42,514 bases of DNA from Planctomycetales bacterium (GTDB lineage: Bacteria; Planctomycetota; Planctomycetia; Isosphaerales; Isosphaeraceae), in NCBI GenBank assembly GCA_027449865.1, contig DAIDKV010000078.1, positions 1-42,514 of the forward strand, in the 5' to 3' direction. This document shows positions 30,134 to 34,289 of the stretch, one piece after another. A program made the translations under genes and the position numbers. The notes beneath the pieces were generated by a model. It made no database searches and was not told the origin of the DNA. It worked only from the letters and a program-made list of their open reading frames with translations. Position 1 is the stretch's first letter; every line of letters starts with the position of its first letter.

Positions 30134-30604
30134 TCAGGCCGGGCGGACGGGGATCGTTCGGGTTCTCGCGGCGCTCCGCTTTGGGAGTCGGATTTTCAGG
30201 ACGCCGTGGTCGATTGTTGCCTCGGCCCTGTCGAAGTCCACCTCGTTCGGCAGGTTGATCTGCCGGTGGAAGGCGCCGAAGTTCCGCTCGCGAACCTGAA
30301 TGTGGGCTTCGGGCAGTTCGGCGGATTCCTTCACTCCCTTGACGGTCAGAACGCTGCCGACGGCCGCCACGTCGATTGACTCGGGCGCGACACCCGGGAC
30401 CTCGACAGCGACCAGGAATTCCTCGGGCGTCTCGTAGAGATCGACCGGCGGGCTCCAGGCCGAAGGATCAAGGTCGGTCGGCCGAGGATCGACCTCGCGA
30501 AAACGGACCTGGCCGAGGTAGGGGTCGAGCAGGCGCTGGAGTTCCTGCTGGAGCAGGGCAAACGGCGTGGCCGACTCGCGCGGCCAGTGACCGGGACGGG
30601 ACAT
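30134..30604 (-). CDS. Small heat shock protein Hsp20 (third of three)
   Basis: ATG 30604 has GGAG 8 bases upstream; the frame is open to 30679 but that part overlaps the preceding gene and is not supported. The 156-residue protein has a variable N-terminus (LLQQELQRLLDPYLGQ), an alpha-crystallin domain (about residues 50-140: PPVDLYETPEEFLVAVEVPGV, LTVKGVKE, FGAFHRQINLPNEVDFDRAEATIDHGVLKIRLPK) and a short tail. Hsp20 proteins hold unfolding proteins in soluble oligomers without ATP. It lies 58 bases after the second gene. Confidence 0.88.
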   Translation of the reverse strand: MSRPGHWPRESATPFALLQQELQRLLDPYLGQVRFREVDPRPTDLDPSAWSPPVDLYETPEEFLVAVEVPGVAPESIDVAAVGSVLTVKGVKESAELPEAHIQVRERNFGAFHRQINLPNEVDFDRAEATIDHGVLKIRLPKRSAARTRTIPVRPA

Positions 30605-30662
30605 CGCGGAGGCTCCGATGGGGACACTCGGGGGAGCTTGGGGCGGATCCAGGGCCTCGATT

Positions 30663-31082
30663 TCACGATCGGATCTCAATCCGACGCGTTTTGCGCCGGT
30701 CGGCGCGAGGGAGGGTCAGCCGGAGGACGCCGTGAGTCAGCTCGGCGGTGATCCGATCGCGGTCGACCTCGTCGCCCAGGATGAACGATCGCTGATAATC
30801 GCCGAGTCGATACTCCTCATGCAAGAGCCGGGCGCCTTCGGGGAGCGGCGGTTCGATCCTGGCGTGGAGGGTGAGGACGTTGCCCTCAAGCTCGACGCGC
30901 AAGGTCGACGCGGTCGCGCCGGGGAGATCGGCTTCGAGGATCAGGCCGTCGGGCCCCTCATGGATGTCGATCGGCGGAGTGATGGTCGGCGCGGCTCGCT
31001 CGCCCGGCATGGGCGCTGGCTCCGAGGCGCCTGAGACCGGCCTTCGCGTCGCCACGGTGACCTGGATGGTCGGGTTCTCCAC
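30663..31082 (-). CDS. Small heat shock protein Hsp20 (second of three)
   Basis: The start is GTG 31082 (VENPTIQVTV), with GAGGAG 7 bases upstream and only 2 bases after the stop of the first Hsp20 gene, so the genes are translationally coupled. A longer frame to 31289 exists but overlaps the first gene and reads as Arg-rich noise. The 139-residue protein has an alpha-crystallin domain (about residues 35-135: PPIDIHEGPDGLILEADLPGA, LTLHARIE, YQRSFILGDEVDRDRITAELTHGVLRLTLPR). The N-terminus is shorter than in the other two, so its oligomers may differ. Confidence 0.87.
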   Translation of the reverse strand: MENPTIQVTVATRRPVSGASEPAPMPGERAAPTITPPIDIHEGPDGLILEADLPGATASTLRVELEGNVLTLHARIEPPLPEGARLLHEEYRLGDYQRSFILGDEVDRDRITAELTHGVLRLTLPRADRRKTRRIEIRS

Positions 31083-31084
31083 GT

Positions 31085-31555
31085 TCAAGCTCCTCGGCCG
31101 CCGTTTGGCTCGACACCGGCACCATTGGAGACGGCGATGTGCCTGGGCCGGGCCGCCTCGGCCTTCGGCAGGGCGATTGTCAGGATTCCACCGGCGAAGG
31201 AGGCTGAGACCTGATCGTTGTCGACCCGGTCGGGCAGCGTGACCGTGCGGGACCATCGCCCCATCGGCCGCTCCTGCCGACGATAACACTCCTCGCCGAT
31301 CCCCTCAGCCCGCTTGCGTTCACCGCGGAGGGTCAAGGTCTCGCCCGAGATCGTCAGTTCGATCAGGTCGGAGGTCATCCCCGGCAACTGGGCCGTCAAG
31401 AGATAACGATCGCCCGCGTCATAGAAGTTCATCGGCGGATAGACGGCCACTCGAGGTCCGACCGGAAACGGGTCGATCGACCCGATCAGCCGGCCGACCT
31501 CCCGCTGAAGCTCTCGGAACGGATCCCATCCGCGATCCCAGGGCATCCCGCTCAT
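31085..31555 (-). CDS. Small heat shock protein Hsp20 (first of three)
   Basis: ATG 31555 follows GAGGAGG closely (4 bases). The 156-residue protein has an N-terminal DPFRELQREVGRLIG segment and an alpha-crystallin domain (about residues 38-140: PPMNFYDAGDRYLLTAQLPGM, LTLRGERK, GRWSRTVTLPDRVDNDQVSASFAGGILTIALPK). It is the promoter-proximal member of three tandem Hsp20 genes. A weak promoter (TGCTTC, 17 bases, TATTCT) can be read on the minus strand near 31620-31660. A CIRCE repeat was not found. Confidence 0.9.
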   Translation of the reverse strand: MSGMPWDRGWDPFRELQREVGRLIGSIDPFPVGPRVAVYPPMNFYDAGDRYLLTAQLPGMTSDLIELTISGETLTLRGERKRAEGIGEECYRRQERPMGRWSRTVTLPDRVDNDQVSASFAGGILTIALPKAEAARPRHIAVSNGAGVEPNGGRGA

Positions 31556-31848
31556 GGAACCTCCTCGGTCGATCGGATTCCTGTCGGACAGGCCCGCCCG
31601 GCCGCGATCGCCAGGGGCCAGAATACGTGCATGGTTAGGAAAGAAGCACTCGGCATGCCAACCGTCGTTCTGGCAGCCGCCTTGTTCGGGGCGTTCTACC
31701 TAAACTATTTCCCAATAAGGATTTTCCCGATCCTCCTGAAAGCCATATGGGAAAGAGGATCTGACCGAAAGGGCCGGCTGTGCTGTCAAACTGGCAGAAC
31801 CGTGAAACCCGTCGAATGGGGGTCGCTGCCGATCTGGCAGGTGGGCGA

Positions 31849-33420
31849 TTACCAGGAGATGACGAGGTTGCGAAACTCGGCCGGGCTATCCAGCGGCGAC
31901 TGGATGGTCAGACAGGCGGGGGTGGGTCCGGTGGGATGGGCGTCGGCGAGGGGGTGGTCGTCGAGGAAAATGGAGACCTCGGGGCCATCGCGGTGAATGT
32001 GAACTCGGTGCCAGGCGGGTTCGTCGTCGATCACCTCGGCCGGTTCCTCGAAAGGATCATCGATGATCGAGAAAGCAGGGATGGTGATCGAGATGCCGAT
32101 CACCCGGATCTGCTCAGGACCGCTTCGCGCGCAACGGACCTCCACTTCGAGATCGAACCGCGAGGGGAGCATCACCGGTAGAACGTAGATTCGGGGCCGC
32201 CAACGTCCGTCGGGCTCCGAGAGGGGTTCGGCGAGGAAGCGGGTCGATTTGAAGCGTGGGCGGGGAGACTGACTGACCGCCGGGGTAGAGTCAGCCAGCG
32301 AGGGATGCGGCCATCGAATGACCAGGCAGGCGGCGAGAATCGAGGTTGAGACCACCACGAACCTGGATGTCCAAGACCAGACGCGGGGCGTTCGGGCCTC
32401 GACCGGGTACGGGCAATTGAGCAGCATCATCATCCGCTGAAAAAGCGGCGAGGGGCCCTCCTCACCGAGACTCGCGGATGAGACTTCCGTTTCGACCGCC
32501 TTCGCACTTTCTGGAGGGCCAGGGCACGTGGTTGGAGCGTCTTGTTCACCGGTGACGATCGAGAGCAGTGAGGAGGCGTAGTCCGAGGACGTTCCGTAAC
32601 GATCGGCGGCGGCACGGTCGGCGAGAAATTCCTGATCGATCAGAAGCTGTGCCCGAATCCACCAGATCTGCGGGAGGAAGAACCAGATCGCCTGGGCCAG
32701 GCTGGCCGCGGTGCTGAACCAGTGGTCCGACCGCTCGACGTGAGCCAGTTCGTGCAGCAGGCTCAACCGGAGCGGTTCGGGATGATCGACGGGCCGGTCG
32801 AGAGACTCGGGGATCAGGATCATCGGGCGCGCCAGCCCGGTGACGACCGGATGCCTGAGACGGGCGCAGACCTTCAGGCCCGGGCGGGGACCATCCCACG
32901 ACCGGCCTACCAGCAGATCGTCTAGCATCGCCAGGGCCTCGGGCGAGGCGGGACGCGATCGAACGATCAGCCAGTGGACGCCCGCGATCCCCAGGATGAG
33001 CCAGGCACCACCGACCGAGACGCAGATGAGGTCCATGATCGTCAGGCCGCGCGGGAGCCATCGCAGGGCGACGTCTTCCCGCTCGATGATCCAGTCGGGA
33101 AAGACCAGGACCGGGAGACCGGAACCGTCGGAGGGCTCGCTCTCTCTCTGCGATTCGAGAGCCGCCGCGGCATCGACCAGCGCCCGGGGGAAGAATCGCG
33201 ATTCGACGAACGTGTCGATCACGTTGAGGCGGGGCAGGTGGCCCCAGGCGACCAGAGGAGGGATTCCCAGCGAGGCCAGCATGGCCACGCGGGCGAGGAG
33301 AATCCGGCGCGCCGGCTGCCGGCAAACCAGGATCGCCAGCATGATGAGCGTGAGGAAGACGGCAGCCGCGAAGGCCGCATCAAAGAGCAGGATGCCAGTA
33401 CGATCCGTCCAGGCCCACAT
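31849..33420 (-). CDS. M56-family (BlaR1-like) membrane metallopeptidase with carbohydrate-fold C-terminus
   Basis: The 523-residue protein starts at ATG 33420. N-terminal helices (about 8-30, 38-58, 128-152) lead to the M56 zinc peptidase: HELAH (His223, Glu224, His227) and the third ligand in DQEFLAD (Glu264). A further helix lies at about 352-370. In BlaR1 the outer C-terminal part is a penicillin-binding sensor. Here residues 378-523 read instead as a LamG/DUF1080-type jelly roll: FDLEVEVRC, AWHRVHIHRDGPEVSIFLDDHPL, CLTIQSPLDSPAEFRNLVISW. It probably senses an outer ligand and, on activation, cuts the BlaI repressor encoded upstream. The ligand is unknown. Confidence 0.82.
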   Translation of the reverse strand: MWAWTDRTGILLFDAAFAAAVFLTLIMLAILVCRQPARRILLARVAMLASLGIPPLVAWGHLPRLNVIDTFVESRFFPRALVDAAAALESQRESEPSDGSGLPVLVFPDWIIEREDVALRWLPRGLTIMDLICVSVGGAWLILGIAGVHWLIVRSRPASPEALAMLDDLLVGRSWDGPRPGLKVCARLRHPVVTGLARPMILIPESLDRPVDHPEPLRLSLLHELAHVERSDHWFSTAASLAQAIWFFLPQIWWIRAQLLIDQEFLADRAAADRYGTSSDYASSLLSIVTGEQDAPTTCPGPPESAKAVETEVSSASLGEEGPSPLFQRMMMLLNCPYPVEARTPRVWSWTSRFVVVSTSILAACLVIRWPHPSLADSTPAVSQSPRPRFKSTRFLAEPLSEPDGRWRPRIYVLPVMLPSRFDLEVEVRCARSGPEQIRVIGISITIPAFSIIDDPFEEPAEVIDDEPAWHRVHIHRDGPEVSIFLDDHPLADAHPTGPTPACLTIQSPLDSPAEFRNLVISW

Positions 33421-33624
33421 TTTGGCGACCGGATGAGGAAAAGGACGGTGTCCAGGACGCCCCCCGCGCGGCGATCCGGGCGATCAGGCCGCTGCTGGCG
33501 GCCAGGTCCCCAAAAGAACGCGGCGAGTCGCCGGCCGATAGCCCACGACCCGCCGCCTGGTTGTCTCGTCGCAGGCGGCCCGGTATCCCAATTCTCCTAG
33601 GATGCCGGAACCAGCCCGGTCGCG

Positions 33625-34062
33625 TCAAGGCTCGACCATCTCGGCCTCGACGGAAGCGGGCTCCTCGACCTTCTGCCCGCTCTGTCGCTGCGCCTCGTCG
33701 ATCATCGCCCGGAGCCGCTCGAGCTCCTCGGGAGACGGCGACTTCGAACCGAGCAGCGCGACCATCACCCGGTCGAGCGCTCCGTCGAACACGCGGTCCA
33801 CGAACCGTCGCGTCAACTCGCCGATCGTCCGCTCCGAGGTCTTCTTCGGAATGTAGACGAACGTCCGGCCCTCGACGACATGGCGAACCAGCCCCTTCTT
33901 GTCTTCCATGATGTTGAGCAGGGTCTGGACGGTGCTGTAAGCCACCGGTCCCGCCATCCGATTCAGATCTTCCTGCACCTCTCGCACACTCGCCCGACCC
34001 CTCGCCCAGAGGATCTTCATGATCTCCAGCTCGCGGTCGGTCACCATCTGGGTCTTCCTCAC
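33625..34062 (-). CDS. BlaI/MecI-family transcriptional repressor
   Basis: The start GTG 34062 has GGAGGAG 6 bases upstream. The 145-residue protein has the BlaI winged-helix domain (MVTDRELEIMKILWARGRASVREVQEDL, AYSTVQTLLNIMEDKKGLVRHVVEGRTFVYIPK) and a dimerisation region (TIGELTRRFVDRVFDGALDRVMVALL), then an acidic tail. In the family such repressors bind dyads upstream of their own operon and are cleaved when the M56 partner is activated. The partner lies 204 bases downstream on the same strand. No clean TACANNTGTA dyad was seen; CGTAACGTAACG at about 34104-34116 is AT-flanked and lies in the right place. Confidence 0.87.
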   Translation of the reverse strand: MRKTQMVTDRELEIMKILWARGRASVREVQEDLNRMAGPVAYSTVQTLLNIMEDKKGLVRHVVEGRTFVYIPKKTSERTIGELTRRFVDRVFDGALDRVMVALLGSKSPSPEELERLRAMIDEAQRQSGQKVEEPASVEAEMVEP

Positions 34063-34289
34063 GGCTAGCTCCTCCGATGATGGGGGAAAACGAGAATAAT
34101 CATGCTCGTAACGTAACGGGCTCCATCACAATACGCAACCCGAAGCAACTCGGAATTCCTTCCCCAACTTCCCGCGAGACCGGACGATCACTTCGCTCGG
34201 CCAGATCGACGATCATCAGATCCGAACATTTCTCTTCTTCGCCATAAGCACCACGATCCGACGCCCTCAGAGAACGGTCTTGACGGATC

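Follow-up and report, generated by a model that had tools for sequence, protein, structure and literature searches.

Work on BlaR1-type switches treats them as regulators of antibiotic resistance. In the closest described systems, BlaR1-BlaI and MecR1-MecI of Staphylococcus and Bacillus licheniformis, the repressor adjoins an M56 protease with an HExxH zinc site, and the protease crosses the membrane four times and carries a C-terminal domain on the outside. In BlaR1 that domain is a class D-like beta-lactam sensor with SxxK, SxN and KTG motifs. A report on S. aureus describes direct cutting of BlaI by BlaR1, and its authors propose that signalling works by the beta-lactam dislodging an outer loop from the sensor (PMC9834060).

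The window, a stretch of 42,514 nucleotides, is contig 78 of an Isosphaeraceae genome assembly of 8.48 Mb in 278 contigs. It has a repressor gene next to an M56 protease gene, and the protease has the HExxH site and a hydrophobic pattern fitting the membrane arrangement of BlaR1 and MecR1. Unlike them, it has no penicillin-binding domain and ends instead in a 155-residue laminin-G/DUF1080-like tail, and no beta-lactamase is found among the neighbours that we looked at. We consider it probable, although by no means certain, that the locus encodes an autoregulated BlaI/M56 proteolytic switch in which the beta-lactam sensor has given way to a small laminin-G/DUF1080-like domain that lies outside the inner membrane. 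The features of the locus are collected in Table 1.

Table 1. Positions in the window of the blaI-m56 pair, its candidate control elements and the hsp20 genes downstream.
Feature	Position	Strand	Description	Basis or location
blaI	33625..34062	(-)	BlaI/MecI-type winged-helix repressor, 145 aa, GTG start	PF03965, E 4.8e-26
m56	31849..33420	(-)	BlaR1-type membrane zinc protease with swapped tail, 523 aa	PF05569, E 6.5e-21
Tail of M56	31852..32316	(-)	shortened laminin-G/DUF1080-like domain, residues 369-523	probably outside the inner membrane
Candidate BlaI operator	34090..34109	(-)	palindrome ACGAG-N-ATGAT-N-AT-N-CTCGT (ACGAGCATGATTATTCTCGT)	footprint of 33 blaI upstream regions
Candidate blaI promoter	34110..34138	(-)	TTGCGT (34138-34133), 17 nt, TACGTT (34115-34110)	footprint
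Second conserved upstream element	34140..34153	(-)	CCGAGTTGCTTCGG, imperfect dyad	footprint
hsp20 genes	30134-31555	(-)	three consecutive genes	downstream of m56
Sigma-54-type promoter	31646-31661		TTGGCATGCCGAGTGC	upstream of first hsp20
Upstream dyad	31784-31796		TGCCAGTTTGACA	ahead of hsp20 promoter

The earlier note on this DNA had described a BlaI/M56 pair with an intact zinc site, and both descriptions stand. The reading frames are where it placed them, and both proteins score well above their Pfam cut-offs, BlaI with 91.8 bits against 22.6 for the BlaI/MecI/CopY repressors (PF03965), and M56 with 75.2 bits against 31 for the M56/BlaR1 peptidases (PF05569, residues 141-309). In the PDB, BlaI matches BlaI 1p6r (E 2.4e-9) and MecI 1okr (E 2.5e-7). 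The blaI gene lies directly upstream of m56 on the same strand in all 33 orthologous loci (a paralogue locus is left out of this count), and BlaI residues 7-14, 40-53 and 63-68 are identical across the 33 orthologues. The zinc motifs are HELAH from residue 223 and DQEFLAD from residue 262, and HExxH and DxExxAD are kept in 34/34 aligned loci. The sequence match of M56 to the BlaR1 structure 8exs is weak (E 0.11), and that to the NCBIfam model blaR1_generic is below threshold (E 9.5e-8, 30.8 bits against 400) and covers the protease part only. Hydrophobic windows are centred at about residues 16-34, 48-51, 133-145 and 358-363. Averaged over 32 aligned proteins, K+R number 3.9 and D+E 0.2 in the TM1-TM2 loop, compared with 14.8 and 18.1 in the tail. 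From this pattern of hydrophobicity and charge we infer a BlaR1-like topology, with the protease inside and the tail outside the inner membrane. The two genes are separated by 204 bases (33421-33624); in the relatives the spacing is about 15 to 270 bases, or the frames overlap. The gap contains a weak terminator-like stem, of a kind that chance could give.

The footprint upstream of blaI has a defined order: CCGAGTTGCTTCGG, TTGCGT, 17 bases, TACGTT, and the palindrome immediately after. TTGCGT and TACGTT would be the -35 and -10 boxes of blaI; a scan with the sigma-70 consensus found no promoter there. Within 4 mismatches, the 20-mer palindrome is present in 15 of the 33 upstream regions and in none of 30 shuffle rounds, and the pattern AYGA-N6-TCGTT is likewise present in 15/33 (shuffle mean 0.1); as related sequences are not independent, the shuffle counts overstate the result. 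The 18 regions in which the 20-mer form is absent belong mostly to more distant genera, in some of which inspection by eye shows different short dyads at that position. Even in loci without the 20-mer form the DNA-binding part of BlaI is unchanged. The staphylococcal operator has a different sequence from this palindrome.

The earlier note gave no target genes for the repressor and proposed a genome-wide search for the BlaI dyad. Such a search gives a partial answer. In the window's own genome, a perfect or one-mismatch operator occurs only at the blaI promoter and nothing else lies within 2 mismatches. At 3 mismatches there are 15 other places (a reversed-pattern control has 4 matches in all). 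Six genomes of one genus each have that genus' form of the operator once within 3 mismatches, at blaI. For four other genomes (G001, G002, G003 and G008), blaI is again the site of the best match, with three other places at 2 mismatches and many at 3. These scans covered 11 genomes, with the operator forms of other genera scanned in one genus only. Since the best operator match is at blaI in the window's genome and in ten relatives, autoregulation of blaI-m56 is the best-supported output that can be predicted. Autoregulation alone yields no physiological output.

In the mechanism that we propose, BlaI dimers would occupy the palindrome at the start of their own promoter. The tail, together with the outer loop between TM2 and TM3, would recognise a ligand or a state of the envelope, and the membrane helices would change as a result. 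The inner zinc protease would then cut BlaI, by analogy with BlaR1, and the blaI-m56 operon would be derepressed. BlaI may also have wider targets, which would have weaker or different sites.

The tail is the part of the protein that sets it apart. The earlier note had proposed that the penicillin sensor is replaced, and we agree: the window tail contains no SxxK, [KH][TS]G or [SY]xN motif and is not a BlaR1 beta-lactam sensor. At least one of these short motifs occurs in 7 of the remaining 31 tails, in a chance-like scatter and never as a conserved set. By itself, the window tail has insignificant Pfam matches to Laminin_G_2 (PF02210; E 0.12, 13.2-13.3 bits against a cut-off of 22.9) and to 3keto-disac_hyd (PF06439, DUF1080; E 0.17, 12.1-12.3 bits against 26.8). 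At E up to 1, and with no shuffled control, 14 of the 32 orthologous tails match Laminin_G_2 (best E 0.0013) and 5 match 3keto-disac_hyd (best E 0.00097). By hhalign, the alignment of the 32 tails (a paralogue and a tail cut by a contig end are left out) matches an alignment of DUF1080 domains from the same genome with a probability of 88.6% (P 3e-7), compared with at most 0.2% for eight control alignments (hsp20 a, b and c, BlaI, and four enzymes or transporters). The DUF1080 alignment holds 27 of the genome's 29 matches, leaving out one with a stop inside and one weak match. Ten of the next-best genome hits to the tail profile comprise six DUF1080 proteins and four DUF1581/DUF1583_N proteins. 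Against the PDB, the profile finds 21 chains of neurexins, laminins, agrin, sex hormone-binding globulin and the LG3 peptide. The best E-value, 1e-14, is a sum over neurexin repeats of which the best one shown has an i-E of 0.35; among chains as long as a single domain, 2r16_A scores best (E 0.016). With laminin G/LNS domains, as in neurexin and laminin alpha-2, the tail shares the core signature WHxVxxxR...D, although single-domain scores are weak and the match is limited to about profile positions 86-131.

Aligned to one DUF1080 domain, the window tail is identical at 6 of 29 conserved positions, L424 and G434 and, in the C-terminal half, W470, G479, Q507 and R517; four of the 29 are opposite gaps. 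The NSG of DUF1080 aligns with PEQ, and the Gln and Gly that go with it are opposite gaps. In our reading, the tail is a shortened laminin-G/DUF1080-like domain that lacks this segment, the likely active site of DUF1080. It differs from PF06439 also in its fusion to a protease. Because the NSG and Gln/Gly positions are missing, the tail is unlikely to be an enzyme. The jelly-roll fold assigned to the tail in the earlier note is borne out as to descent, in that the profiles relate the tail, remotely, to the DUF1080/laminin-G (ConA-like) superfamily. The fold itself is less secure: AlphaFold with four sequences gives a mostly beta structure at an unreliable pLDDT, 39.3 for the tail and 35.2 for the whole protein.

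As to what the tail would recognise, laminin-G domains are not restricted to sugars and also bind proteins and steroids. Among the DUF1080 proteins of known function are a 3-ketotrehalose hydrolase and an endo-xanthanase/lichenase (PMC9007349), and by analogy with these a sugar ligand is possible. That the pair senses a sugar or glycan, as the earlier note proposed, is a hypothesis: the tail lacks the NSG and Gln/Gly positions, and the alignment of 32 tails has no obvious conserved ligand pocket. We advance only tentatively the idea of an Isosphaeraceae-wide receptor whose lectin-like ectodomain would turn a glycan or envelope-polymer signal into BlaI proteolysis. It would be a carbohydrate-gated, non-antibiotic member of the BlaR1 mechanism, and its ectodomain a DUF1080 enzyme or laminin-G domain that shrank.

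The same features of the tail can be explained without any ligand. The tail could be a structural or protein-docking domain, the signal coming through the membrane helices or the TM2-TM3 loop, or the protease being constitutively active. The loss of the DUF1080 NSG and Gln/Gly positions is in keeping with this, as is the divergence of the tails, which have 17-37% identity to the window tail apart from its two nearest relatives (83%) and whose conserved columns resemble the core of a fold. Short extensions follow the domain in six of the 32 tails. There is also a precedent, in that the S. aureus report describes an M. tuberculosis BlaR1 homologue as having no equivalent sensor domain (PMC9834060). 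Against it, the full tail is kept in 32 of 45 Isosphaeraceae genomes (E 5.8e-30 or better with the profile of 32 tails), as expected of a functional input domain, and we think a tail without a sensing role rather unlikely. Weaker profile matches in the 45 genomes (E 3e-8 to 8e-4) sit at other places.

Another explanation looks for the output next to the pair. In 21 of the 30 loci with enough sequence (three of the 33 end too soon), genes of the hsp20 family lie directly behind the pair and share its strand, three genes in 18 loci, two in 2 and one in 1. The pair could thus be a switch from envelope stress to chaperones. However, 9 of the 30 loci have no hsp20 gene, and 7 of those 9 genomes have a relative of the first gene, hsp20c, elsewhere. 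The hsp20 genes also appear to have their own promoter. A TGGCA-N7-TGC pattern, which has the shape of a sigma-54 promoter, is found upstream of hsp20c in 17 of the 21 loci against a shuffle mean of 0.1, with shuffles that preserve single-base composition only; the single match in the window is within chance, and it is the recurrence that counts. Dyads similar to TGCCAGTTTGACA occur in 10/21 loci (shuffle mean 0.07). The BlaI operator is found in none of the 21 hsp20c upstream regions. One survey reports that predicted sigma-54 promoters are enriched at heat-shock genes, including IbpA, in Planctomycetia (PMC12316311). The other neighbours, named from their translations as tatC, siroheme-type, glycosylase-like and citramalate-synthase-like genes, are syntenic in many loci as well. 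Given the sigma-54-type promoter, the lack of an operator and the synteny of the flanking genes, the hsp20 adjacency is best read as synteny, and control of hsp20 by BlaI is improbable.

It is quite improbable that the protease acts on other substrates, with BlaI merely its feedback control; the close operator at blaI in all 11 genomes scanned would fit, but there is no candidate substrate, and pattern scans could have missed weaker BlaI sites. That the tail is a BlaR1-like beta-lactam sensor that has diverged, as the BlaI/M56 pairing and the sub-threshold blaR1_generic match to the protease part might suggest, can practically be dismissed on the missing SxxK, SxN and KTG set and on profiles that point to laminin-G/DUF1080.

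Within the family Isosphaeraceae, BlaI and an adjacent M56 protease with this tail form a conserved pair of genes. Among 392 Planctomycetota genomes, with ten candidates scored per genome, only the window's genome and one other Isosphaeraceae genome match the tail profile at E 1e-6; the number of Isosphaeraceae within this draw is not given. A search with the whole protein matches 141 of 198 related genomes, and below the full-length relatives, among the matches listed, coverage is mostly of the protease part. In titles and the openings of abstracts, with subscription papers mostly out of reach, we found no M56 protein with a laminin-G/DUF1080 tail. A lectin-like input together with an operator at the pair's own promoter, syntenic across the family, suggests that the BlaR1 mechanism serves envelope sensing more generally. 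With its palindrome, short tail and near-invariant BlaI, the system is simple to test.

Other M56 proteins of the window's genome also have a BlaR1-type protease. For seven of the other eight, the tails are CarboxypepD_reg in two cases, DUF1559/SBP_bac_10 in one and no named tail in four, where five of the seven stretches end at the end of the locus. Since these tails differ, three of them being other named domains, varied outer domains on M56 proteins appear to be usual in this genome. Overall, the genome has 29 matches to DUF1080, 9 to M56, 10 to BlaI, one more than to M56, and 7 to hsp20. In the planctomycete DUF1581/DUF1583_N proteins at four loci (L173, L174, L175 and L182), one segment is akin to the M56 tail, and its match to the tail profile spans as many as 114 of 149 positions. 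Unlike the M56 protein, the four have frames of 532 to 2,911 aa and no M56 domain in the stretches scanned. This hints that the uncharacterised DUF1581/DUF1583_N families include ConA-like domains.
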